This document shows, piece after piece, positions 1 to 63,261 of a stretch of DNA of 64,000 nucleotides. The notes beneath the pieces are model-generated. The model saw nothing but the letters and a program-made list of their open reading frames with translations, had not been told where the DNA came from and did not search any database. The stretch lies in NCBI RefSeq assembly GCF_902167145.1, contig NC_050097.1, positions 113,493,982 through 113,557,981 on the forward strand. The letters are read 5' to 3'. The position numbers and the translations under genes are program-made. Each line of letters starts with the position of its first letter. The first letter of the stretch is position 1. This DNA comes from Zea mays. Lineage: Eukaryota; Streptophyta; Magnoliopsida; Poales; Poaceae.

Positions 1-3000
1 GTAGATGTAAATTTTGTGCACTTTTGGACCAAAGTGCAAATACCAAAGTGTTAGAACACCACAAATCATGTGTTTTTCACACTTGAGAATTTGCAAGTTA
101 AATAGTGGAATTTGGACTTATTTGCAAAAAGTACCCCATGAACCCTATATGCTTAAGTCTGGAATTCAGTTGAATAGGGTCAACTTTGGAGCTCTATATC
201 TTTAAATCTACAAGGATTTTGCCCTAGGTCAACACATCAAATTTGTAGAGGTACTATAGGAGCATAACTTTGTTTAAGTTACAAGACATGAGTGTTGTAC
301 AAAAAATTAGAGTTAAATGGGCTCAAAGTATGGCTGTCAGTCACCAATGAGGTCTGATATTGGTCTGACAGTGAGTTTTGATAAACTTTGGACTCGATTC
401 AAGCTCGATGGATTAAGTAAATGATCAAGGTTTCTATAGTCAAATTGTAGCTGGTTTATAGAGCTACAAATTTGGTGCAGATGGATCCATAGCTCACCAC
501 ATGAAAAATGGAGAAAGAAGCTTCTCAACTCGCTTTGACAGACACACTGACGAGGGTGGCCATTGTACAGTAAATGAAGAAGATCTTAGGTACGTTGCAC
601 CACGCCGCCGGTGATTTTGCGCTCGGATTCGCGCCAGCCGCCGCGATTCGTGCCCAGCGCTAGTGGATAACTGAGGGGAGTAAAAGATCTTAGCGCCCAG
701 ATTGGCTCGAACTCGGTCACTGTTGAGCTCACTGTACCCACTTGGTCTGCGGCCGGCCGGAATGACCTTCATCTGTGTTGGCCGCTTACTGATCGTGCGC
801 CATGTGCCTGAGAGGTTTAAACACATCGCAGTGAACCCTTGTAGCAAGCCCATCTATCGCCGGTGGCCTTGCCACGGTAGCCCCTACGCCAATGACTTCC
901 CCTCTCTCCGGTCGCTAGCGCGCCATTTCAAAATTAGCCGCCACCGCTCTCGGACACTATAAATTGATGGTACCGTCGGCTCCGTTAGGTTGTCATGAAG
1001 CCAGAGCACCCACCCTTGCCTCCGATTAGCCACCACAGCGCCCGAATTTCCTTCTTCCCCCAATTCAGTTCTCTGCACCGTCGTGAGTGAACTCACCGTG
1101 GCGAGCCTTCTGCAGGTCAGTTCAAGCTTCCTTAATTGGTGTTCTAGCCTCCCTCGTGTCCCCGGTAGCTCATAGACCCATTCGATTGAACTAGATCGCA
1201 CTAGATTGACTTGAACACCATAGTTTCCTATCGATTTTCGTCGTCGTCGTGAGCAGATGTGCTCCGGGCCGGTTTAGTGCAATTGGTGGAGGGATTAGCG
1301 TCGTAGAGGGTGGAATTCGGTGACGGTCAAGTTAGGACTCTGGTTTTTGAGCATATCGGCCAATCCGAGCTTGCTGGAGGGCGTGCTCGCCGTCATTCGC
1401 CATCGAGGACTCGAGTTGTGAAGAGGAAGAAGTCTAGGGGCCTTGGTGCAGATGTCAGTGAGACAGGGGAAATAGTGGAAAGGATTCTTTACGGGTTTTT
1501 CAAACGGCCAAGGGCTTCTGTGCAAAGATGACACCGCTGGCGCGCGCGTAGCGCATTTCCCTGGACATGGGCCGACTTGGGCTGGTTTCAGCCCATTACT
1601 ATTCATTTTTCCCTTTTCTTTTTCTGCTAGACTTGGGAAATTCATAGAAAATTATAGAAAAATGATAAAAATATGAGACCAATTTTACTAGATTTCTAAA
1701 TTCCTCTAGTATTTAATAAAAATAGTTCCAATATTTTTAGTCCAAACCAAGAATTATTTAGTATTTAAAAGGGCCTAAACCTATACTTTTGGAATTTTAG
1801 AAATTACTAGATAACTCCAAAAATCATAAAACTTTTTGGGTAAGCCTAATATGGTATTTAGAGCCCATGGGTGAAGTTTGACTTGTTTTGGACATTGTTT
1901 GATCCCCAAACCCAAAACCCTACTCTTCTAGGTAGTATCTGCCTTATGATAATGAAGTACTGACTCTGAAAACCCTAGTTTCCCTGGTGTACCGTGAAGG
2001 AAAGTTGTATTTAAGATACAACTTGAAGAATCTCTATTATAATTGCATATTCATAGCATCACATGAGCATTCATGTATATGTATGGTTGTGTATAGAAAA
2101 CGAAGAAGTAAGTGTTGAAGAAGAAGAGGCTGCACCACCAGCTGAAAATCCACCTACCGAGAACTGCTTTTATTTTGATATCTGTGGAACAGATCCCAAC
2201 TCCCCTACAACATAAGGCAAGCCCCGGTGCATTTGCCACCTCCTTGCTGTTTTAAACTTTTATCACTTGAATGATGCATTAGGTGATAGGAATTGAGTGT
2301 TAAACCAATTGTTGTATTTCCTTCCTTGGAATTATTCACTCTTCCTTGATTACCTATTTTATGAAAAGGTTTTCTGATGCTTAGTCTTGCTTTAGAAAAT
2401 AAAATGTTTTGTTTTTAACAAAAGATGATGCTTCAGATGGAATGGGAAGTTTTCAAAAATAAAACTTGATGGAGGATCCATCATGGCCATGATGGGTTCA
2501 ACATCAAAAAAGATGTACCTCTGCTAGGTACCAAACTTTGGGGTTTAAATGATTAAAATGAGACCGGGCGGGTGGCTTGCACGAGAAGGAAGTCTCGGGT
2601 AGTGCCTCCGTTTGAGTCGATTAAGGACCGTACTGATGTAGGCTTGCTGATTGAGGACCTTTTAACTGGCCACATGCCTCGTCATGGGTAAGCTTTGCCT
2701 CGGGCAGACTAATACCAGAAAGGCCAACACACAATGGGAGTGGAGGGATGGCGAGAGTAGAGTGTACCCTCCATGGCAAGAGGCTGGACGGTGGTGTATC
2801 TATGTTCTCGGTTGGCGTGAACCTGGTCTGGTCTTAAGAAATCCGGTGGCGAGTTGACATATGCAAGGGTTAAGTGCTACATATGTCATGTGGTTGGAGA
2901 TCCCCAACTGGGTATTAATCGATTTGGATCGTCGTTACTTCTCGGATATGAAGACTTGGTCACTGCCCTACACGTAGCAATCCAGTGAACTGAAGGGAAG

Positions 3001-3699
3001 ATAAAAAGATGGCTAGTATAGGCCAAGTGCTTGAACTAGGATAGTAAGAACTCTAGTTACAGGTAATGACTTAACCTGATAATAAAACTGGATTTTTAAG
3101 GATCCATTATTAGTAAGCATTTTTGACAACAGAGTCTTTGATTCTTTGAGATGGCCTTACCTTGACTCCCTCAAGCCAGCATATCCTTGAGAGTCTTTTC
3201 TTTTGTCAGGTAAGACTTGCGAAAGTACACTCCGTACTCAGGGTTTTCAAACCCATGTTGTTGTAGGTGAGGAAATTGCAGACTTTTGCTGTTTTTGTTC
3301 TAAGGTGTTACCCAAGAATGAACCCTAACAGTAAAGTCCGTCGCAGGAGGATGTTGGCCTCCCACTTTAAAAACAATACTCTTTTATGCGGGAGGGTGTT
3401 TTGCCTCCCGGTCTGTAATAATAATACTTTATGCACTCCTAAGTACCCTGGTATTGTAATAATGATACTCTTCCTCTATATTTGATGAATGTAAATTAAA
3501 TTATTGTAATCTGCTTCTGCTCGTTCTTTCCTTCGATGTGATGTAATATCTACGTGACGGGTGAAGCGCTCTTGGGAAAAATGATGAGGATACGGTTACT
3601 GAACTTGCCGAGTGATTAAGTACATCTACAGGGTTGTCCAAGGTCCTTAGGACAAGGACAACTGTAGGTGGGCCTAATACCTTGGGAGGTTCCGTCACA
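1..3699 (+). repeat. 5' LTR of element A (first ~337 bp lie before the window)
   Basis: Position 1 matches position 13118 in the 3' LTR, and the two copies run nearly identical to about position 651. This copy continues through about 2.57 kb that is missing from the 3' copy and rejoins it at about 3227. It ends in TCACA just before the primer site. The full LTR would be about 4.0 kb. Small ORFs such as 14-205 recur in both LTR copies and are not genes. Confidence 0.93.
957..965 (+). promoter_or_regulatory. Candidate TATA box in the LTR of A
   Basis: The sequence CTATAAATT lies in a GC-rich part of the 5' LTR and would place the transcription start near position 990. It falls inside the segment deleted from the 3' LTR. 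The assignment rests on motif and position only. Confidence 0.4.
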
Positions 3700-3701
3700 G
3701 C

Positions 3702-3713
3702 TGGTATCGGAGC
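3702..3713 (+). other. Primer binding site of A (initiator-Met tRNA type)
   Basis: TGGTATCGGAGC begins two bases after the LTR end. It differs by one base from the usual plant iMet-complementary site TGGTATCAGAGC, where reverse transcription of the RNA genome is primed. Confidence 0.9.
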
Positions 3714-3951: not shown

Positions 3952-4527
3952 ATGGCGCATACAAGGAAAACTGCACGCAAATCTACTGGACCTTTTGGCG
4001 TGCCTCGCCATCAGCTAGCCCCTAGACATGAAGGGAGTAGTAGTGGCTCCAATGCCCCGATTGGAGACTTGGAGGCCAAGGTGGAACAACTTCGGACAGA
4101 GCTACGTCACCGGAACAGGATATGGGCGCAGGACAGCCAACATATAGCTGAGTTGTCAGCTGACGTCAGTCACTTGCAATACGAGATATCTAAACGGGAT
4201 TCGGCCATTGATTAGGCCGTTAACTCACGTTCGATCGCTTGGGATCGCGAAGCAAAAGCTCGAGCTCGTGTGGTAGAGCTTAGCACGGCCCTTGACAGCC
4301 TGCAAGTGTACTGTAATACTTTATATGAGGAAGTACATGTATTGTATGCTCGACTGCACTCGGACGTGCCTTCCGACACAGCTGCAATGGGAGCAGGACC
4401 ATCGGGAACAGCAAATGAAGGACCTGATGAGGAGTTGGACCTTTTTAGGCCCCCTCCTTCCATGAATCTTGCTGACGAACAGTCTCCTACTGCAGGAAAT
4501 GAAGCAACAAAGGATGACGAAGACTAG
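3952..4527 (+). pseudogene. Extra ORF of A: histone H3-tail-like N-terminus plus coiled coil
   Basis: A reading frame of 191 codons runs from ATG 3952 with a single in-frame TAG at 4213-4215. Residues 1-13 read MAHTRKTARKSTG, identical to the histone H3 N-terminus at 10 of 13 positions; H3 residues T6 to G12, including K9 and S10, are all kept. Four residues later comes PRHQLAP, matching H3 PRKQLAT at five of seven positions. Residues 40-130 are heptad-like and charged, consistent with a coiled coil. The C-terminus is acidic. The ORF lies between the primer site and gag, where most gypsy elements have only leader RNA. The His at H3 position 2 (CAT) could be a decayed CGT arginine codon. The function is unknown; H3 mimicry is an inference from the sequence. 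Confidence 0.8.
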
Positions 4528-4675: not shown

Positions 4676-5742
4676 ATGCCATCACGGACTCGCGCACACG
4701 CTGGTGCGGGGACTTCCCGTGGTCAGGAAGATACTCCCAACCCACCACCAGTACCACCAACGTTGGCCGAGGCTATCGCTGCCTTGGTCAATGCTACTGC
4801 AGATAATACACGCTTCTTGCGTGAGATGGCGGGTAATCAGTTCCAGCAGCATGGAGGTAGAGCTCCTCTGCAAGGACCGCGTGAAGCTATGTATCAGGAA
4901 TTCTTTGAAACCCGACCCCCGCTCTTTATTAAAGCTGAAGAACCTTTAGAAGAGGATGAGTGGGTAAGAGTCATGGAACAAAAGTTTAGGTTGATTCGCT
5001 GCACAGAGACACAAAAGCCATTGTTTCCTGCCCAACAACTGAGAGGGTCTGCCAGTACTTGGTGGGCAAATTTTGTAGCAGTTCAACCGGCTGGACATCA
5101 AATCACCTGGAAAGAATTCAAGTTAGCATTCCATTAGCACTATGTTCCTGAAGGAGTGCTTCATATGAAACAAGAAGAATTCATCCGGTTAAAACAAGGA
5201 GGAGATACTGTAATGCAGTATCTCAACAATTTTAATCATCTATCTCAGTATGCCATCGACCAAGTAAATACAGATCTGAAGAAAAAGAATTGTTTTATGA
5301 GGGGACTCAACGACAGGCTTCAAAGGAAAATGGCCACCTGTCTGGACCTTACTTACAGCAGAGCCGTCAGCACGGCGCTGGCAGAAGAAGCCAAGAATAC
5401 AGGCCATGGAAAAACAAAGGGATTTGGAGGTGATAGGTCTAATCAGGGACCTGAGAAGTGAACCAGGTTGGTGATCTGACCTTTTAATCAGAATCGTTCT
5501 TTGCCTCGCCCACCCTCTCCTATCCGTTCAAGCAGCTTGTTTTTATTCATCCCAATACCGCCCCTACTTCTACAAATCAACCGAGTGCCCATGGTACTCG
5601 TTTCCCCGCTCTCCCTAGTTCTTCTACTGGCTGCTTCAACTGTGGAAAGTTTGGTCATTTTATAAAGGACTATCCATACCCGAAGTAGAATAAATTCAAC
5701 ACTCAGCAGAACTCTGGGAGCTCCAATCAACGCAAAGGGAAC
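4676..5742 (+). pseudogene. gag: gag of A (capsid plus zinc knuckle), broken
   Basis: The Gag polyprotein would form the virus-like particle in the cytoplasm. ATG 4676 opens a proline- and alanine-rich N-terminus, followed by a retrotransposon gag domain with the LRGSASTWW block and a MKQEEF...LKQGG region. A TAG stop at 5135-5137 and a TGA at 5459-5461 interrupt it. The frame then shifts, because the zinc knuckle at about 5632-5670 is in the frame of the protease. That knuckle reads CFNCGKFGHFIKDY: the last ligand of the CCHC motif is Tyr, not Cys. The protein is not functional as it stands. Confidence 0.85.
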
Positions 5743-7660: not shown

Positions 7661-8084
7661 GGGTGTATGTGGTGTAGCACAGTGAAGTTCACTGTTGGTG
7701 AGAATAGTGACGAATGAATCGTCTGACTTAGTCTGAACAGAGAGATTATAGGCAGAATATGGGATAAGAGTATTTTAGGAGTTTTCTGGATTATGAACCA
7801 TGCTTATGGGATGACATGGTTGGATAGGGAATAATTCGATAAGAATTTAGAAACGAGAATTATTGGAATCTGAGTTTGGAAGCCTGGTTCGAAGGAATCT
7901 CAAGTTAAGCGTGCTCAACTTGGAGAAACCTAGGATGGGTGTCCAGATGGGAAGTTCCCACTGGAAGGAAAATCACAGTCACCGGAGTTTGTAAAACTGG
8001 AATATGGGTCTGGCTCGTCTTAGGTGGACTGGACAGCATGATGGATGAGTAGTTGAAATTTGGGGTGATCGGATGATCGATGAA

Positions 8085-8425
8085 TAGTAACGGTGAATAC
8101 TAACGGTAAATAGTAACGGTAAAAAGTAACGGTAAAAAGTAACGGTAAAAAGTAACGGTAAATAGTAACGGTAAAAAGTAACGGTAAAAAGTAACGGTAA
8201 AAAGTAACGGTAAATAGTAACGGTAAATAGTAACGGTAAAAAGTAACGGTAAATAAGTAACGGTAAAAAGTAACAGTAAATAGTAACGGTAAAAAGTAAC
8301 GGTAAAAAGTAACGGTAAAAAGTAACTGTGAATAGTAACGGTAAAAAGTAACGGTAAATAGTAACGGTAAATAGTAACGGTAAAAGTAACGGTAAATAGT
8401 AACGGTAAATAGTGATGGTGAATAG
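8085..8425. repeat. Minisatellite of ~25 units of 13 bp (core TAACGGTAAA)
   Basis: The unit is AGTAACGGTAAAW with small variants; some units are 12 bp and some carry CAGTAAA or CTGTGAA. Each unit has TAACGG, which fits the MYB-type consensus YAACNG. The array is absent from the related F LTR, so it arose within this subfamily. Confidence 0.93.
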
Positions 8426-8429
8426 TTCG

Positions 8430-8790
8430 TATGAACGAACGATGAACGATGGATAGGAACTATGAACGAACGATGAACGATCGAATGATCGAACGAACGA
8501 ACGATCGGAATTTCGGCAGCATAACGGCAGGAAAAAGATTATTTGGACGAACGGACGGACGAACGATCGAACGATCGGACGAACGAACCATGAACGATCG
8601 GACGAACGAACGATCGGAATTTCGGCAGCATAACGGCAGGAAAAAGATTATTTGGACGAACGAACGGACGAACGATCGAACGATCGGACGAACGGACGAA
8701 CGAACCATGAACGATCGGACGAACGATCGAACGATCGGACGAACGAACGAACAAACTAAGAATAGGGGGACGAACGATCGAAGAACGACC
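8430..8790. repeat. ACGAACGATCG-rich array with a 108-bp higher-order repeat
   Basis: Short CGAACGATCGG units alternate with a longer block containing TTTCGGCAGCATAACGGC, which occurs twice with a spacing of 108 bp (about 8510 and 8618). The GATC-centred units are partly palindromic. The open frames on both strands (RTNERT- or VRSFVRSF-type peptides) come from the repeat and are not genes. Confidence 0.9.
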
Positions 8791-8915: not shown

Positions 8916-9367
8916 CATGGTGGGGGGATTAGGGGGAGGGATGAGGGGATTAGTGGGAGGATGAGAGGATTAGTGGGAGATTAGCATGGATTTGTCTTAT
9001 ATGAGTGTAATTAGCTTGTAGAGCTCACCGTATGACACCGGAGGCATACGTATACGTATGAGCATGAGAAAAGTTATGGAGAAAATATTTGTAGGGACTT
9101 GAAAAATGATTCTGAAGGTATTTCTCAGGAAGAAAATACTTGGACATATATCGGTGGAATATTTGGGCAGTATTTCTGAAAGAGTTTGAGGGTGATCACT
9201 GGGGAAATATTTTGAGGAGGATTTTAGAGAGAATATAGACCACTATATTTTATTTGCTGATATCAACTTGCAAACAAACATTTTGAAATGAAATTTGAAA
9301 TTCATTTTGAATTTAGAGCGAGTTTGAGAAAATTTCAAGATTTGAATTTTTGGGATGCTACAACATA

Positions 9368-12300
9368 CTTTCATAAGCAAGAGTTTTGTGGAAAAGCATT
9401 GCATTCCTTGCACTGAATCAAGGGAAGGATTTATTATCCATTCACCTGGGGGACGAATATTTACTAAGGAAATAGTCTTCCATATACCAGTAACATTGAC
9501 CGGAAGGGAATTCCCTACCAACATGATTGTTTTAAAGGGCCAAGACATAGATGTAATCCTAGGCATGAATTGGTTAGCCCAGCATAGAGCTATCCTCAAT
9601 ACTAACTTAAGGACCATCAAATTGAGCCATCGTCATGAAGAGATTCAGTTGTCCATCCCTGTGGCTATCCTAGCCAGACCCACAAGACGAGTTTATGAAT
9701 CTATCATACCAGAAATCCAGAACATTCTGGTGGTATGTGAATTCTTGGATGTTTTTCCTAAAGATTTGTCTGGATTGCCTCCTGAAAGGGATGTAGAGTT
9801 TGTGATTGAACTAAAACCCGGTACGGCTCCTATTTTTAGAAGGTTGTATCGAATGCCACCTAATGAATTGGCAGAACTCAAGACTCAACTCCAAGATTTA
9901 CTTGAGAAGGGATTCATTAGGCCTAGTTCGTCACCATGGGGATGTCCAGCAATTTTTGTCAAGAAGAAGGATCAAACACTTCGAATGTGCGTGGACTATA
10001 GATGCCTTAATGAGGTCACTATTAAGAACAAGTACCCTCTTCCCTGAATCGATATTCTATTCGATCAACTTACTGGTGCTCGGGTATTCTCCATGATTGA
10101 CCTCAGGTCAGGTTATCATCAGATCCGTATTTGGCCCAAAGATATACCCAAGACTGCATTCACTACGTGTTATGGGTTATTTGAATACTTGGTTATGTCC
10201 TTCGGATTGACAAAGGCTCCAGCCCACTTCACATACTTAATGAACTCGGTGTTTATGCCCGAGTTAGATAAATTTGTGGTGGTCTTCATTGATGACATCC
10301 TGATTTATTCCAAAAATGAAGAGGAGCATGCTAAGCATTTGTGGATTGTGTTAACGCGTCTAAGGGAGCACCAATTGTATGCTAAATTCAGTAAATGTGC
10401 ATTTTGGTTGGAAGAAATCCAGTTTCTGGGACATGTATTATTTGCAAAAGGAATTGCGGTCGATCCCAGTAAGGTTAAAGATATTCTAGAATGGAAACCG
10501 CCAACAATAGTGCATCAAGTTTGAAGTTTCCTTGGACTAGCCAGATATTACCGCAGATTTATTCCGAATTTCTCCAAGATTGTTAAACCTATTACAGGTT
10601 TATTGAAGAATGATACAAGGTTTGACTGGTCCTCAAAATGCAATGAAGCCTTTGAGCAGCTGAAGATGTTACTGACCACTGCTCTGGTATTGGCTCAACC
10701 AGACATAGAGAAGCCTTTTGATGTATATTGTGACGCATCAGGAAGTGGACTCAGATGTGTCTTAATGCAAGAGGACTGAGCCATAGCTTATGCTTCAAGA
10801 CAACTATGCCGGCGTGAGGAGCATTATCCAACTCATGACTTGGAACTAGCTGCAATTGTTCATGCCCTCAAGATATGACGTCATTATCTGCTGGGAAATA
10901 CTTGGCATTTATATATAGATCATAAAAGTCTGAAATATATTTTTACCTGGTCAGAACTGAATATGAGGCAGAGAAGATGGCTTGAGCTGATTAAAGATTA
11001 TGATTTGGAAATCCACTATCACCCAGGAAAAGCTAATGTGGTGGCAGATGCACTGAGTCGTAAAGCTTCCTGTCATTGTCTTACAGTAAGGACCTCTGAC
11101 ACCACCTTATGTCAAGAAATGGAGAAGTTGAACCTAGGTATGATACAACATGGAACTTTAACCCAATTAAAGCTTGAGTCAGTTCTTCTGCAAAAGATTA
11201 TTGATGCCCAAAGAAGTGACAAGGGTATGAAACACATTCATGAGAAAATAGAAGCCGACAAAGCTAATTGCTTTAGAAAGGATGATCAAGGGATAGTATG
11301 GTTTAATGATCGCATAGTTGTGTCTAAGGATACGGAAGTCCGCCAACAAATTTTGGATGAAGCTCATCTTAGTTGATATTACATTCATCCCGGAAGTACT
11401 AAGATGTATCAAGATTTAAAGCAGAATTATTGGTGGACAAAAATGAAAATTGAGATTGCACGCTATGTGGCAAGTTGTGACACCTACAGACGTGTCAAGG
11501 CAATACATATGAAGACAGCTGGACCACTGCAATCTTTACCCATCCCAACTTGGAAATGGGAGGACAATAGCATGGATTTTATTGTGGGATTGCCCAAAGT
11601 AGCTAAGGCTTTTGATTCTATATGGGTTATAATTGATCGACTTACAAAGATTGCCCACTTTCTTCCTGTCAAAGTAAAGTATATAGTGGCCACATACGTG
11701 GAACTTTATATTGCTCGTATTCTCAGTCTGCACGGGGTTCCAAAAACAATAGTGTCGGACCGCGGACCACAATTTGTATCCAAATTTTGGGAAGAGCTCT
11801 ACAAATCCTTGGGTACTAAACTACTCCACAGTTTGGTCTATCATCCTCAAACAAGTGGGCAAACTGAGAGAGTGAATCAAATACTTAAAGACATGTTGCG
11901 AGCATGTGTCCTGGAATTCCCACAGAAATGGGATGATTGTCTGCCACTGGTAGAGTTTTCTTATAATAATAGCTATCAAGAGAGCATCAAGATGGCACCA
12001 TTTGAAGCACTGTATGGACGACGGTGCCGGACACCCTTAAATTGGTCTGAACCCGGGAAAGATGGTTTTTTAGGCCTGACATGGTTAAAGAGATGGAAGA
12101 AAAAGTTCAACGAATCATACACAACTTGAAAGAGGCACAAGCTCGGTAAAAGAATTATGCGGATAAGCGACGTCAACCTTTGGTTTTTCAAGTTAATGAC
12201 CATGTGTATCTAAAAGTATCACCAATGAAGGGTGTAAATCGTTTCGGTGTAAAAGGGAAACTGGCACCCCGATACATTGGCCTGTTTCTTATTCTTGAAC

Positions 12301-12605
12301 GATATGGACCAGTGGCTTACCAACTCCAGCTGCCAGAAACATTATCTGCGGTACACAACGTGTTCCATGTATCTCAATTAAAGAAGTGCCTTTGGGTTCC
12401 TGATCGAACCATCAATGTGGTGGATGTTGTCTTGAAACCAGATTTGACTTATTCAGAACATCCCATTCGAGTTTTGGATCAAAAGGACAGGATCACCTGA
12501 AAAAGGACTCTTAAATTCTACAAGGTACAATGGAACCAGCATACGGAAGATGAAGCCACCTGGGAGACTCAAGACTTCTTAGAAAAGAATTTTCCTAGGT
12601 TTTGA
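9368..12605 (+). pseudogene. pol: pol of A: protease end, RT, RNase H, integrase, chromodomain
   Basis: One frame carries the rest of the protease (DVILGMNWL), the RT with active site FIDDIL, RNase H ([24 protein letters not shown]) and the integrase (MDFIVGLP, DRGPQF, TERVNQ, the D-D-E residues). A frameshift in the T-run near 12067 moves it to another frame for the integrase tail (VFHVSQLKKC) and chromodomain (YKVQW...DEATWE). Stops occur at 10045, 10522, 10777, 10876, 11374, 12145 and 12498. By comparison with D and the family consensus, at least four stand at arginine (CGA) positions. The integrase zinc motif reads CDTY where CDTC is expected. Confidence 0.93.
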
Positions 12606-12780: not shown

Positions 12781-14243
12781 TGTAACACCCCTGGTGTTAC
12801 TGGCACTAAAACTTGAGCATGACATCATGTGCATTGACATTTCATATTGATTGTTACACCTAGAATGCATTCACTAGGTAAAATTTCAAAGAAGTTGTGA
12901 TGAGGTGACTTGATGGGTGATTAACCCTAGGGTAGAGTACTTAACCCTGAGTTAGGGCTTAGGTATGTAAGTGAAGCCCAAATAGGTTAAAACCTCAAAA
13001 CTCATGAGAAATATTCATAAGGTATCACATTTGATGGACTTTAGTGGCACCAGAACCCTGATGTGCCTAAAACCCTAAAAACCAACCCTAGAAACCCTAA
13101 TTGAAACCCTAAGGGGGGTAGATGTAAATTTTGTGCACTTTTGGACCAAAGTGCAAATACCAAAGTGTTAGAACACCACAAATCATGTGTTTTTCACACT
13201 TGAGAATTTGCAAGTTAAATAGTGGAATTTGGACTTATTTGCAAAAAGTACCCCATGAACCCTATATGCTTAAGTCTGGAATTCAGTTGAATAGGGTCAA
13301 CTTTGGAGCTCTATATCTTTAAATCTACAAGGATTTTGCCCTAGGTCAACACATCAAATTTGTAGAGCTACTATAGGAGCATAACTTTGTTTAAGTTACA
13401 AGACATGAGTGTTGTACAAAAAAAATGGAGTTAAATGGGCTCAAAGTATGGCTATCAGTCACCAATGAGGTCTGATATTGGTCTGACAGTGAGTTTTGAT
13501 AAACTTTGGACTCGATTCAAGCTCAAATGGAGTAAGTAAATGATCGAGGTTTCTATAGTTAAATTGTAGCTGATTTATAGAGCTACAACTTTGGTGCAGA
13601 TGGATCCATAGCTCACCACATGAAAAATGGAGAAAGAAGCTTCTCAACTCGCTCTAACAAACACACTGACGAGGGTGGCCATTGTACAGTAACTGAAGAA
13701 GATCTTAGGTACGTTGCACCACGCCGCCGGTGATCTTGCGCTCGGATCCGCGCCGGCCGCCGTGATTCGTACACTCCGTACTCAGGGTTTTCAAACCCTT
13801 GTTGTTGTAGGTGAGGAAAAGCAGACTTTTGTTGTTTTTGTTCTAAGGTGGTACCCAAGAATGAACCCCAGCAGTGAAGTCTGTCGCGGGAGGATGTTGG
13901 CCTCCCACTACAAAAACAATACTCTTTTATGCGGGAGGGTGTTTTGCCTCCTGGGTCTGTAATAATAATACTTTATGCACTCCTAAGTACCCTGGTTTTG
14001 TAATAATGATACTCTTCCTCTATATTTGATGAATGTAAATTAAATTATTGTAATCTGCTTCCGCTCGTTCTTTCCTCCGATGTGATGTAATATCTGCGTG
14101 ACGGGTGAAGTGCTCTTGGGCAAAATGATGAGGATACAGTTACCAAACTTGCCAAGTGATTAAGTACATCTACAGGGTTGTCCAAGGTCCTTAGAACAAG
14201 GACAACTGTAGGTGGGCCTAATACCTTGGGAGGTTCCGTCACA
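12781..14243 (+). repeat. 3' LTR of A with a ~2.57 kb internal deletion
   Basis: It starts TGTAACACCCC and ends CCGTCACA. It matches the 5' LTR except that bases equivalent to 652-3226 are missing, leaving 1463 bp. The deletion ends share only the two bases GT, which points to illegitimate rather than homologous recombination. Degenerate telomere-like AAACCCTAA motifs occur at 13060-13117. The candidate TATA box lay in the lost part. Confidence 0.92.
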
Positions 14244-25163: not shown

Positions 25164-26162
25164 ATGGTTCGTACTCTCCAAACTACCCGGGTCAACACCA
25201 ACTACGCCCCTCTGCCACGGCAAATCCCTGTCTACCCAGTGGTAGTCGAGGAAGTTCTGGTGGATCTCCCTCACATTCGAGTGGAGAATGGAGTCATCCT
25301 GGAGGACAGCTCGGAGGAACAGCTGCCGACGCCCACCCCGTTGGTAGAGTCACTGGCCTTCGCAGCTAGGTCATCGACATCGGCACTGCCTACACCAGCC
25401 GTCCAAGCTCCTGCACCCGGAGGCAACGACCCCAACGACTCTAGGGACGATGATGACGAGGATGACGAGGACGAAGAGGAACATGTCCATGAAGAAGCCA
25501 ACTACGCCCAGCAGGACTACTTCATGGGGTTTGGGCCTGTTGTCGAACATTACACATCGATGTTCGAGACGGGGCACTTCCCCAATCTGCTACAAGACGT
25601 GCTGCACGCGCTAGGCACCTACGTCCGCCCCCTATACAAAACAAGGCGAGTGAGCAAGCCTCCCCGGACTTGCTACTACATCACTCGCATCCACGTCAGG
25701 GTGATGGATGCAGGGGATAGGGGATTCAGGACTTTGTCTGCTCATGAGTCCCTGACACCGCTATCCACCTACACTGCCTCGGTCAGCGTCGCTGCCAGAC
25801 GGACCCTGTGGTCTCTTAGCCACACCTACCGGCAGCTGCTGTAGGACATGAGGTTCAGGCATCTTCCTCTGTGTCTGAGTGGAGGAAGCCAGACCAACAT
25901 CGTTCCAGGTGAAGCTGGTGAGGATCTCCTCAACACCCAAGCTGGTGTGGTGGCCAGTCTCAACACCGACCTGGACAGAGCCACCCTAGATCTCTCTAGG
26001 GTGCACTTGGAGCTGGAGGATGCCCATGTCAGGATTGCAGCCCTAGAAGCCCAACTTCAAGGACGGGGTCCGCCTGAAGCCCAGGTCCCCGCCATGGCGT
26101 TGTCTCCTCCCCGCAAGAGGCTTTGCTATGGGGAGCCCAGATCCGTTACCAGGCTGCTTTAG
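25164..26162 (+). pseudogene. Extra ORF of D: H3-like start, acidic run, shared domain, coiled coil
   Basis: ATG 25164 opens a frame of 332 codons with one in-frame TAG at 25842-25844. The start MVRTLQTTRVNT matches H3 at seven of twelve positions (M, R2, T3, Q5, T6, R8, T11), but K4, K9 and S10 are not kept. About residue 90 begins an almost unbroken run of Asp and Glu, like the acidic patches of histone chaperones. A globular region (HFPNLLQDVLHALG ... AARRTLWSLSHTYRQ ... RFRHLP) aligns with the extra ORF of F. The end is a heptad-rich coil (TLDLSRVHLELEDAHVRIAAL). The ORF lies between primer site and gag, as in A and F. The function is unknown. Confidence 0.78.
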
Positions 26163-31018: not shown

Positions 31019-32290
31019 TCGAAGGGAGTGTTAGCACTCGCTTGGAGGCTTTCGTCGCACTTTTTTGCAAGGGGACCAGCCTTCCTCGGTTGCATTTCAT
31101 TCCGGTGGGTGCGCGCGAGCGCACCCGCCGGGTGTAGCCCCCGAGGCCTCGGAGGAGTGGTTTCACTCCTTCGAGGTCTTAATGCCTTGCGTAACGCTTC
31201 GGCTGGTCTGGTCGTTCCCTCATGCGAACTGGCCGTAGCCCGGGTGCACGGTCGGGGCCCAAGTTCTCGGGCTGGTATGTTGACGCTGTCAACGGTTCGG
31301 CCGGAGCCGGGTTTGCGAGAGCAGCCCCCGAGCCTCCGCACAGGGCGAGAGGACGATCAGGGACAGACTCGACTTTTTACATACGCCCCTACGTCGCCTT
31401 TCCGCAAGGAGGAGGGGGGAGTGCGCCATGTTACCCTCGATGGGCACCGAACATGGTGTCTCCGGTGAGCTGCAAGCGGGTAATCCGAGTGGACGTCCGT
31501 GCCCCGTTCGTTGGGGGTCGGCTAGGGGCCCAGAGGCACGCCCAAAAGTACCTGCGGGTGATCTGCCGGACCCGGTCCCCTGGCGACGGGGTCCGAGGGC
31601 TCGATGCCTCCCTCCGATGGGATTCCGTTACAAGATCGCTCCCGCTGGTCTCGGAAATGTCCTAGGGTACCTCGGGAGCGCAGCCCGAGCCTCGGTTATG
31701 TATCGAACGTACCCCTGGTCATCCCTCGCTCGGCGTCTGAGGCGACTGTGAACCCTTCGGGGGCCAGCCTTCGAACCTCTGATCAGTAATGGGCGCGGAG
31801 CCCGAGTAGCCTGAGGCGGCCATGGAGCCCTTCGGGGGGCCGACCTTCGAACCCCTGACCAGTAGTGGGTGTCGGGCCCACGCGATCTGAGGTGACTGTT
31901 GAACCCTTCGGAGGGCCAGCCTTCGAACCTCTGATCAGTAGGGGGGCTCGGAGCCCGGTTCCTTCACAGGGAAGGATCCTTTTCGGGGTATCCCCCTTTC
32001 CTGGTCCCTGTTGCAAGAGATAGAGAAAGGGGAAAAAGGGAAAAGGATACGAAATCGAACAACGTGGCGTACCTCTTTTGGCGCGGTTATTACGGCGAAG
32101 GCGAAGCGTCGTCCGCTTCTCCTGCCAGAAGCGCCGCCTGTCCCGCCGCGGAGTTAATGCGACGGGGCGAGTGGTTGGCGGGGTGGCCGTTGCGCGTGCG
32201 CGAGCCATTCGAGGGACGGCTATTTTGCATCGCGCCTTTTGAATCCCGCGTCCGGTCCGGGCGGAGCGCTGGAAACGGTTTCGCCCTGGT
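31019..32290. other. G: GC-rich spacer upstream of the antisense gene, with three ~75-bp repeats
   Basis: No gene is recognisable. Between about 31745 and 31965 a unit with CCCTTCGGGGGCC and CTTCGAACCTCTGATCAGTA occurs three times at a spacing of 75-76 bp. The repeats end some 330 bp before the TATA box of the antisense gene, a position that would suit upstream promoter elements; this role is an inference. Confidence 0.7.
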
Positions 32291-60348: not shown

Positions 60349-63261
60349 TTACTCTGCAGCTTCAACTTCGGCTTGGTCAACCTGTATGAAAGTATCATAA
60401 GCAAAATTCGAAATTCAAAGGAAAAGGTAAGCATAAGGTATGATTTTGTTACCAGCAAAAGGTGGCTTCGAGCTTCGTCACCAGCTTTGCTCCGTCCACC
60501 CTTCGTCCACACTAACTTTATAAATCTATTTGCAATACTTCGAGCCAGACTGGGAATATTATCTAGGTCTGCTGGTGAAAGGCTGAAGTTGGGTCTATTA
60601 ACAATCTTGTCGTGTTCACAGCCAGACTTCAAAAAGGCAACAGTTGTGCCCTGAGAAGCTACCAGGGCACAGAAGTCGCCATGCCCAGCTATAACTTCGT
60701 CAAGATCATTAATTTCACCTTCAATATGCTCGAAGGCACCAGGCAGGTCTTCAGCCGAAGGAGTAAACTCTTCACTACTGGCTCCAACAAAATGGAACAC
60801 CTGCTTCAACTGTTGAATGCATCGAGTGCTGAACTCCACGCACTTATTCTGAAGATTTTTCAAAGAGTCTTTCAGCTCCGAACTTCTTTGAACTTCGGCT
60901 TCAAGCTTTGCATCAAGTTTCAGCTTTTCTTGTCCAAAATTTTTTGATTGGGAAAGAAGCTTCGAATTTAATTCTGCTATTTTTGCTTCAGCATCCGCTA
61001 ATAAGCCTTCGGCTGTTTGAAGCTCGAAGTCTTTCTTTTCGATGGCAGCTGATTACTCTTTTATCTTGTTTTCTAAGTTCTCAACTATAACTTCGTGCCT
61101 TTTATCCTCTAAGTCCTGCTGCATTTTTAAGGCCTTGCTCAAAAGCATACTCTGTGGACAAATAACCTTCGTTAGAAAATATTTCTGTTATTACAAATAA
61201 TAAGAGTTAGACACAAGATGTTTACCTTAAAATTGGAATAGAACAAACTACCGACAATGTGTTGTCGTCGGTAGCGGCTGATATCTGCTTCAAGCTTTAG
61301 GAAACTGATACTCTTTGATAGAGTACCAATAACCTTCGCACCGGACTGATCTCGTATGCAGTTTAATCCTTCATCATCAATGCCACCGAAGAGAAGCGCC
61401 CCCGGCCGGTACCCGCAAGATATAGCATACTCTTTTAATTCCTCTTTTTCAGCTTCTGTTAGCTCTTGGCCAACTAAGTTTCGGAAGTCAAAAGTTTTAT
61501 CTTCCGAAGTTTCTTCGGTTATTTCTTCCTTCTCGGGTTTTGCGGCCGTGGTCTCTTCGGTGGCTGCAGCAGCTTCTTCCGCGGCCATGTTTTGCAGCAT
61601 TTTATCTATATCAGCAGCTATGTTTTCTGAATTAATATCTTCGGATTTGGCATCTTCGGCTCTGGCCTCTTCTGCGGCAGCCTTCGAAGGTACAGCTTCA
61701 GTAGCTGTCGTTCTTTCAATTGCTGGCACTTTCGGAGCTGAACCCCTTGGTGGTGTTGCATCAATCACTTCTATCACAGTAACAATCCTTTGCCTCTTTG
61801 GCCTAGGTGCCTTTGTTTTTGTCGGCTCCTTTCCCTTATGAAAAAGTTTCGTCAGATGCAGCCTCAGTGGACTTAGTTTGACAGGCAAAGTTTCAGTCAT
61901 TACCTTTAGGATTTCCTCTATTTCAGTAGCAGAAGATGTCGCAGAAGTCTTCTCTTTTTCATCAATTGATTTTTGCTTTGGAGTCGACGCCCTTCTTTTC
62001 TTCGAAGCAATTTCTTTCGCCTCATATTCTTGTTTCTCCTTCTTTGATTGATCTTCGTCGCCCTTATTTAAAGCACTAGCCACTCTTTTTCTTTTTTGCC
62101 CTTCGGCACCCTTATCCAGTCGCTCATAGTCAGGATATTCAAAGCCTATAGCATCCATCACTCGGTTTAACCTTCGTTTCGGGCGGGTGCCGAAGGCTGC
62201 TGTCATCAATTGATCTTCTTTTTTGGAATAATTTCCAAGAATTTCGTTACACATTACTTCGATTGTTTCCATCCATTCTTGGCAGGGTACTTTGAAATGT
62301 CTCTTGAACTTGTAGTGGTAGGGCAGTCGGATAAGTTCCCCTCCTTCTTTCCTTCAAGCTTCGGCATGGCCCACTCTTTCATAGTTGGAAATATTTTGAA
62401 AGCCAAAATTTCCTGCACTAAGTCCCTAGTGCCAATGTGCTCTGCGATAATCCTGAATTCAGTCAGCGCAGTTTGGGTTGGACCCTCTGGTGTCATATTA
62501 CATTGGGGTCTGGTCTCTCCGAAGATCAGCTCTAGCGGGCTCTAGACCAGCTTCTCCCTATCATCGCCAACTTTGACGTAGAACCATTCCGATTTCTAGC
62601 CTGCCGGCCACTTGCTTCGATAGCTGATCACAGGAAATTTTGTAGTCTTCCGGTAAGCAAAATTGTAACAGCCAAAGTTTTCATGTAATCCATCCTTTCT
62701 GGCCTTGGTTTGGTAATGCAGCTCGTGCACCCGGCAAAAACCTTCGGCAAACGGTTCCACCCCCTGGCTTCGGAGAGCCCAAATATAAACACTAAGCCTA
62801 ACGATAGCGTTAGGAGTTAGCTGATGAAAGTGGATCCCAAACTTCTTTAGCACATCGGCAATCATCTTATTTAAAGGGAATCTCAAACCAGCTTTGAAGA
62901 AACTCTTAAAAACTACTATTTCATCTTTTTCTGGCTTCGGAGTAGTTTCTTCTCCACCGAAGCGAATCAGCTCTTTCTTATCTTTATTGAAATAGCCCAA
63001 TTTCAGCATCTTCGGAAAGTCACCTTCAGAGACTGTGGATTTTCCAAAATCCAGGTGGCTGGGTTTGCTCGGCACCGAGCTGCTATAATCATCTTCAGAA
63101 TCGATCTCTTCAACACCAGCTTGTTCTGCTTCAGCAGCCGGGATGTCCTCTGGTGTTACCAACCCAGAGCGCTTCATTGCTTCCGAAATAGGAACAGACT
63201 CAGCAGCTTCGGTCTCATCTCCCTCACGATCGACCCTTGCAGTAGAGCGAACTCTGGCCAT
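60349..63261 (-). pseudogene. Antisense three-exon gene of I (same type as in G)
   Basis: Exons by eye are 63261-61226, 61151-60453 and 60381-60349. Both introns have GT-AG ends (AAG/GTAAAC ... CCACAG; CTG/GTAACA ... TACAG) and are in phase 0. The N-terminus is acidic; a domain with FPLNKMIADVLKKFGIHFHQ and LTPNAI aligns with exon 1 of the antisense gene in G. A long charged Ala/Glu/Lys region follows, then coiled coil (IAELNSKLLSQ) and a helical C-terminus ending EVEAAE. Lesions are TAG at 62596-62598 and another near 62545, a one-base shift near 62330, and a TAA near 61053. It resembles the antisense ORF known from maize Grande (gene 23). The function is unknown. Confidence 0.8.

Follow-up and report, generated by a model that had tools for sequence, protein, structure and literature searches.

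An accessory ORF in a chromodomain retrotransposon of maize

The window, that is, the whole stretch of 64,000 nucleotides of Zea mays DNA that was analysed, contains a retrotransposon with gypsy-type pol domains (RVP_2, RVT_1, RT_RNaseH and Integrase_H2C2) and a chromodomain (Chromo) after the integrase. The features of this element, referred to below as the first chromovirus, are collected in Table 1 together with two accessory ORFs from elsewhere in the window. Comparison of its 5' and 3' LTRs gave 41 mismatches over 1130 alignment columns, and we take its primer-binding site to be of the tRNA-Met type. An array of 13-bp tandem repeats, with GAACGATCG-type repeats adjacent, was found between the gag and pol pieces (8034-8450).

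On the same strand as pol, between the primer-binding site and gag and about 240 bases past the 3702 site, lies an ATG-started frame with the translation MAHTRKTARKSTGPFGVPRHQLAPRHEGSSSGSN... and a stop codon at 4525-4527. We refer to it as ORF0, the published term for ORFs in this slot (PMC3485330). The copy in the window is broken by an in-frame TAG at codon 88, a feature absent from an earlier note on this DNA that had been made from the sequence alone. The labels ATG16 and SlyX were rejected for ORF0; these matches fell under the Pfam cut-off and probably reflect coiled-coil likeness.

The chromodomain was compared by eye with published ones. Its residues at the aromatic cage positions are H, W and H, such that Y24 and Y48 are lost and W45 is kept, as in group II. 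Plant group II chromodomains have been reported to lack Y24 and usually Y48 (PMC3350952), and the aromatic cage motif is reported to be confined to clades other than Tekay (PMC6317226). Where the published motif is EEXTWEXE the element has DEATWETQ, in which E, T, W and E agree and both ends differ.

Table 1. Features of the first chromovirus and two further accessory ORFs (positions in the window)
Feature	Position	Strand	Domains and remarks
5' LTR	1..3699	+	Cut by window edge; insertion at about 652-3224
Primer-binding site, TGGTATCGGAGC	3702..3713	+	
ORF0, accessory ORF upstream of gag	3952..4527	+	Broken by TAG, 4213-4215
H3-like N-terminal tail of ORF0, MAHTRKTARKSTGPFGVPRHQLAPR	3952..4026	+	Residues 1-25
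Second conserved stretch of ORF0, ELDLFRPPPSMNLAD	4432..4476	+	In disordered C-terminus
gag start	4676..5137	+	Separate frame, ends at stop; later gag interrupted; Ty3_capsid and Retrotrans_gag, both below Pfam cut-off
Protease and reverse transcriptase pieces	9346..10524	+	RVP_2, RVT_1
RNase H and integrase pieces	10879..12129	+	RT_RNaseH and Integrase_H2C2 above cut-off; rve below
Chromodomain	12489..12599	+	PF00385, 27.0 bits (cut-off 25.1); in-frame stop
3' LTR, TGTAACACCC...CCGTCACA	12781..14243	+	1463 bp; purine tract before
Accessory ORF of second chromovirus, MVRTLQTTRVNTNYAPLPRQ...	25164..25844	+	Same slot as ORF0; H3-like start without K9
Transposase_28 accessory ORF, MARVRSTARV	62596..63261	-	PF04195; start weakly H3-like, without K9

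The N-terminus of ORF0 resembles the histone H3 tail

The H3 tail is the tag that plants use in silencing jumping genes. The earlier note had described ORF0 as beginning with a copy of this tail, and comparison of the ORF0 translation with H3 reproduced its observations: ten of the first thirteen residues are those of H3, the block from T6 to G12 is unbroken, the likeness starts at the exact N-terminus, and a second match, PRxQLA, aligns with H3 past a one-residue insertion. The H3 reference used for this comparison agrees with the top H3 chain in the PDB over the first 24 residues, up to one residue. ORF0 of the window thus contains TARKSTG, in which the modifiable lysine of the H3 tail is flanked by its H3 neighbours.

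The claim that a chance match is unlikely also held, as the scores of shuffled tails and of Markov-shuffled windows stayed below those observed. The local alignment score of the tail against H3 was 61, and 5000 shuffles of the first 26 residues gave 21.1 ± 4.2 with a maximum of 48. The ungapped score of 45 was the highest among the 1259 ATGs of the window that are followed by 12 open codons. When the window was shuffled 60 times by a first-order Markov model, the shuffled sequences contained 70,033 such ATGs, of which two scored at least 27 and none at least 32. Both shuffle tests thus disfavour chance and basic composition as the source of the likeness. We also compared the 28-residue tail in its family form with PDB chains using phmmer, which returned 133 distinct sequences at E ≤ 10 (best E 0.002); the 60 of these that were listed were all H3, H3 peptides, H3 variants or H3-type proteins such as Cse4. 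That a short basic N-terminus converged on H3 by chance is most improbable: the block of 13 residues is short and MxRxxxTxR-type starts recur within the window, but none of the 70,033 shuffled starts reached 32, against 45 for ORF0, and the second block comes nearly in register.

The tail is found throughout a family of ORF0 proteins

A protein search with ORF0, its internal stop replaced by X, returned 1760 matches, of which the best 120 were listed, nearly all from the source 'jgi'. Among the best 120 the usual start was MARTRKTARKSTGP[F/I]GVPRHQLAPRHE, which in the form MARTRKTARKSTGP[F/I]GVPRHQLAPRHEG agrees with H3 at 11 of 13 positions. The tail was left out of a second search, whose query was residues 60-192 of a distant member and which returned 1504 matches. 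By a permissive pattern, half of the best 120 of these (60) carried the tail, most often in the form M(P)PRTRKTARKSTGPIGVPRHQLAP; among the other 60, 10 began inside the tail, 5 past the K9 block and 38 in the helix, and 7 were of other kinds. Taking both searches together, the permissive pattern was present in 162 of the 236 proteins fetched (107/120 from the search with the tail and 60/120 from the search without it), and the remainder began inside the tail (18), after the K9 block (10), in the helix (38) or otherwise (8). The exact sequence TARKSTG occurred in 36 of the 107 and 27 of the 60 tail-bearing proteins; the majority of copies are thus altered somewhere in this block.

Retention of individual residues was counted after aligning the best 120 of the 1760 matches. 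With no added tail filter, albeit in proteins from a search that had included the tail, K9 was kept in 109, S10 in 110, T11 in 108 and G12 in 101 of 115 proteins. The A7 position was A in 67 of 115, and the T22 position was P or S in 118 of 120. Position 3 was R in 88 of 107 proteins and C or H in 17; as R is the prevailing residue, the H in the window appears to reflect decay of this single copy. Further counts come from 156 tail-filtered proteins, which, like the sets of 157 and 151 proteins, were chosen by near-tail patterns such that retention is overstated. In these 156, K4 was replaced by R in 149, and the non-R states at the R2, R8 and R17 positions were mostly C, H, Q or W, as would be expected if a methylated element decays by C-to-T changes.

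The earlier note had named a differing start in intact relatives as evidence against the motif. The outcome of this check was mixed, and a few relatives do start differently (P0149, P0159 and P0217); three others look out of frame (P0135, P0136 and P0140), and in P0235 the tail is shifted. Five proteins of the type MA[R/H]TKT retain K4, and one subfamily begins with MPP, so A1 is not strict. From these alignments we conclude that the H3-like tail is a real, family-wide motif, and the tail is on the same sequence grounds a family feature and no accident of the window copy.

ORF0 starts were fused in frame to RT or integrase pieces in P0231, P0232 and P0235, probably by internal deletions of elements. 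Searches of viral contigs confirmed no DNA relative for ORF0, the integrase, the protease/RT pieces or the ORF of the second chromovirus, and searches of genome contigs confirmed none for ORF0 or P0236.

Evidence for constraint on the tail

Copies were compared with the consensus of their subfamily. The tail differed at 275 of 3169 residues (8.7%) and the helix at 1243 of 14033 (8.9%), i.e. there was no difference, even though 79 of the 236 proteins had been left out as short, fused or without a full tail, a bias in favour of the tail. Equal decay of tail and helix within subfamilies is as expected for dead copies. We also compared the six subfamily consensuses (151 proteins) with each other. 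Three of 21 tail columns varied, compared to 32 of 93 helix columns (p 0.11) and 20 of 54 when all other columns of the disordered C-terminus served as the control (p 0.09). Only when the conserved ELDLF stretch was excluded from the disordered control (19/39) did the difference reach p 0.011. The block from K9 to G12 was identical in all six consensuses. On drift of the tail, which the earlier note had also named as contrary evidence, these comparisons give a mixed answer.

A distant relative, P0236 (247 aa, MAHTRQTARKKTGPKGVPRHQLAPR...), gave a different picture. Profile comparison supported its homology to the ORF0 family over 149 columns (98% probability), and it kept 21 of 26 tail residues as compared to 44 of 156 aligned positions elsewhere. 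Where H3 has S10 this relative has K, and it retains Q5 and K14 of H3. It was the sole distant relative found, in a search that included the tail (7 matches, the other six in ORF0's own family), and was thus chosen for having a tail. The case for constraint therefore rests mainly on this one sequence, and we regard the evidence from these sequence comparisons as moderate.

Other H3-like starts in the window

The earlier note had carried an impression that similar starts occur in other grass retrotransposon proteins, and this was borne out within the window by the accessory ORFs at 25164 (+) and 63261 (-). When 260 long frames were ranked by the H3 likeness of their starts, these two came second and third. 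The first of these begins about 140 bases past the primer-binding site of a second chromovirus with MVRTLQTTRVNT. This start gave an ungapped H3 score of 32, and 1 of 5000 shuffles was as good against H3; R2, T3, T6 and R8 of H3 recur in it. Homology of this ORF to ORF0 was not established by hhalign (probability 0.4), and BLASTP with P0236 gave no N-terminal alignment. We offer the H3 likeness of its start as a suggestion only. The sequence TTTCTCTTGTAG directly precedes the 25164 ORF and looks like a 3' splice site.

The start of the Transposase_28 ORF scored 27; 49 of 5000 shuffles were as good against H3 and 4 of 5000 against the ORF0 tail. Fourth among the 260 frames was MARARATATPPT at 32208 (-), with a score of 26 and no recognisable belonging. 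The start of gag in the first chromovirus (MPSRTRAHAG) was rejected as H3-like, as its score of 16 was under the mean of its shuffles. The accessory starts without K9 may reflect a role of the motif that does not depend on K9, or be diverged remnants, or be coincidences.

Predicted structure of ORF0

An AlphaFold model of the family member P0001, made with 39 sequences, predicted unstructured residues 1-35 at low confidence, a single helix spanning residues 36-135 (about 100 in all), and disorder at the C-terminus. P0236 folded alone gave a similar layout with a helix at 42-188. No histone fold was found: the Pfam matches of P0001, P0116 and P0236 at E ≤ 1 included no histone family, and AlphaFold predicted long helices. 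The helix of ORF0 would probably oligomerise, and the position of a conserved stretch within a predicted disordered region suggests a linear motif. The ELDLFRPPPSMNLAD stretch is strongly conserved, was not seen in P0236, and is possibly another linear motif.

Possible functions of the tail

The reading that we favour, tentatively, is that writers or readers of H3K9 take the tail for that of H3, and that ORF0 is an accessory protein displaying it on a long helix. The initiator methionine of ORF0 would be removed; residue 2 was A, P, S or T in 146 of the 156 tail-filtered proteins, and these residues permit such removal. The tail (A/P/S-R-T-R-K-T-A-R-K-S-T-G...PRHQLA) would then be handled like H3 by the H3K9 writers (SUVH4-6) and readers of the host, and ORF0, probably as an oligomer, would titrate or redirect these proteins. 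The element is unlikely to read the tail with its own chromodomain, because two of the cage residues of that domain, Y24 and Y48, appear by eye to be replaced by H.

The residue pattern points most to the CMT3/ZMET2-SUVH feedback loop. The BAH domain of ZMET2/CMT3 binds residues 1-10 of H3, and residues 14-23 lie along an allosteric loop with contacts to R17, K18, L20 and T22; activation of ZMET2 requires readout of K18, and a 1-17 peptide did not activate it appreciably (PMC9256654). The ORF0 tail contains both of the H3 segments that ZMET2 contacts. Among the 156 tail-filtered proteins, in which retention is overstated as above, R17 was kept in 123 and L20 in 150, and H took the place of K18 in 152. 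Retention of the ZMET2 contacts together with replacement of the activating K18 suggests that the tail could be a competitive decoy of ZMET2/CMT3 that does not activate. Methylated at K9, it would bind ZMET2/CMT3 without activating it, and the element would be spared non-CG methylation. Contacts of ADCP1/AGDP1 with R2, K4 and K9me2 of H3 have been described as well (PMC6318295, PMC6208443), and the R at the K4 position of ORF0 may or may not fit this reader.

Several observations speak against reading of the tail as H3 with K9. P0236 has K in place of S10, the inserted residue alters the spacing between K9 and R17, T22, K4 and A7 of H3 are often replaced in the family, and the two other accessory ORFs of the window start alike without K9. 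The equal decay of tail and helix in single copies, and the lack of a significant difference in constancy between subfamilies against the helix or all other disordered columns, count against it as well. A fuller version of the imitation hypothesis is unlikely as a whole. It would have a captured H3 tail antagonise the H3K9me2-CMT3 loop: SUVH enzymes would methylate its K9, its two conserved blocks would fill the BAH site and the allosteric groove of CMT3/ZMET2, the H found at K18 would let it bind without activating the enzyme, and CHG methylation would be blunted, the H3-like starts of the other accessory ORFs being diverged versions of the same trick.

Alternatively, the tail could serve as a chromatin tether, recruiting or being held by heterochromatin readers and steering the particle or integration complex to H3K9me2 chromatin, a task that a chromodomain lacking the cage may no longer perform. 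The H, W and H at the cage positions and the cage loss reported for group II (cited above) agree with such a role, as does the presence of chromodomain and tail in one element, and the long helix, if the models are correct, could render the display multivalent. As nothing links ORF0 to the integrase or the particle, however, and a free H3 mimic would bind readers rather than chromatin, tethering seems somewhat unlikely.

A basic N-terminal signal for nuclear import or nucleic-acid binding, with the H3 likeness due to a histone import route or to basic composition, is another rather doubtful possibility. Residues 1-28 of H3 are themselves an import signal (PMC5677370), and the recurrence of R2, T3, T6 and R8 without K9 in the ORF of the second chromovirus would suit this role. 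So would the K23 position: among the best 120 of 1760 matches, 111 have R there and 7 have K. Kap123 reads K14 and K23 of H3 and ignores the sequence of residues 15-22 (PMC5677370). In the family the K14 position was I or F in 144 of the 156 tail-filtered proteins and K in 1, and residues 16-21 apart from K18 were kept. Given this loss of K14, we consider import of the Kap123 type less likely, although R at K23 may partly serve, P0236 has K at the K14 position, and replacement of K14 by R had a minor effect (PMC5677370). Basic composition is likewise disfavoured as the source of the likeness, as shuffles of the same basic residues reached at most 48 against H3 and the observed score was 61.

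The tail might also be a relic of capture, in which an ancestral element took the N-terminus of H3 and the tail persisted by descent or in an unrelated role. The likeness runs in order across 25 residues, and different H3 residues were kept in different relatives (Q5 and K14 in P0236, K4 in the five MA[R/H]TKT proteins); in addition, decay at the copy level equals that of the helix and constancy between subfamilies was not significant against all other segments. Persistence without current mimicry is nonetheless quite unlikely, considering that the tail of P0236 is far better retained than the rest of that protein and that K9-G12 is the same in the six consensuses.

Relation to known systems

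Imitation of H3 by ORF0 would have counterparts in viruses. ORF8 of SARS-CoV-2 (PMC10208167) and NS1 of influenza virus are parasite proteins with a short H3K9-like motif that has been reported to engage host histone enzymes. In contrast to these mimics, the ORF0 match lies at the exact N-terminus, extends over about 25 residues with a second block, belongs to a plant retrotransposon and is known from sequence. VANC of the Vandal DNA transposons is likewise encoded by the element and counters host DNA methylation, as is proposed here for ORF0; however, VANC recognises DNA motifs in related elements (PMC13317346), whereas ORF0 would act via histone readers or writers.

Histone mimicry is thus known from viruses, and anti-silencing proteins are known from plant transposons. 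Among the matches listed from the open-licence PMC literature, as judged from titles and starts of abstracts, none describes a retrotransposon protein of plants with a tail resembling that of H3. The words 'plant' and 'transpos' were absent from the main text of a review on histone mimics (PMC10208167), as was 'histone' from that of the article on ORF0 (PMC3485330) and of one on additional ORFs (PMC7264820). As far as this search reaches, the H3-tail-like motif of a chromovirus ORF0 is new. If the tail acts as H3, the long-blank function of chromovirus ORF0 proteins becomes testable with one peptide. Imitation would then provide a self-contained example in which a parasite copies its silencing mark, in an element whose chromodomain is without the usual cage for that mark.

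ORF0 proteins of Retrosat2, RIRE3, RIRE8, ZMsat2, Sorsat2 and Brasat2 are likewise encoded by an extra ORF on the same strand between the 5' LTR and gag-pol (PMC3485330, Gao et al. 2012), and Retrosat-2 has been placed among the Tekay/Del chromoviruses (PMC6317226). At about 3 kb, the LTRs of Retrosat2, RIRE3 and RIRE8 differ from the 1.46-kb LTR found here; the ORF0s themselves were compared by description only. Published ORF0s were reported only from grasses and as fast evolving (PMC3485330). Hydrolase-like and other enzymes were proposed for them from models (PMC3485330), whereas the AlphaFold prediction obtained here consists of a tail and a single long helix.
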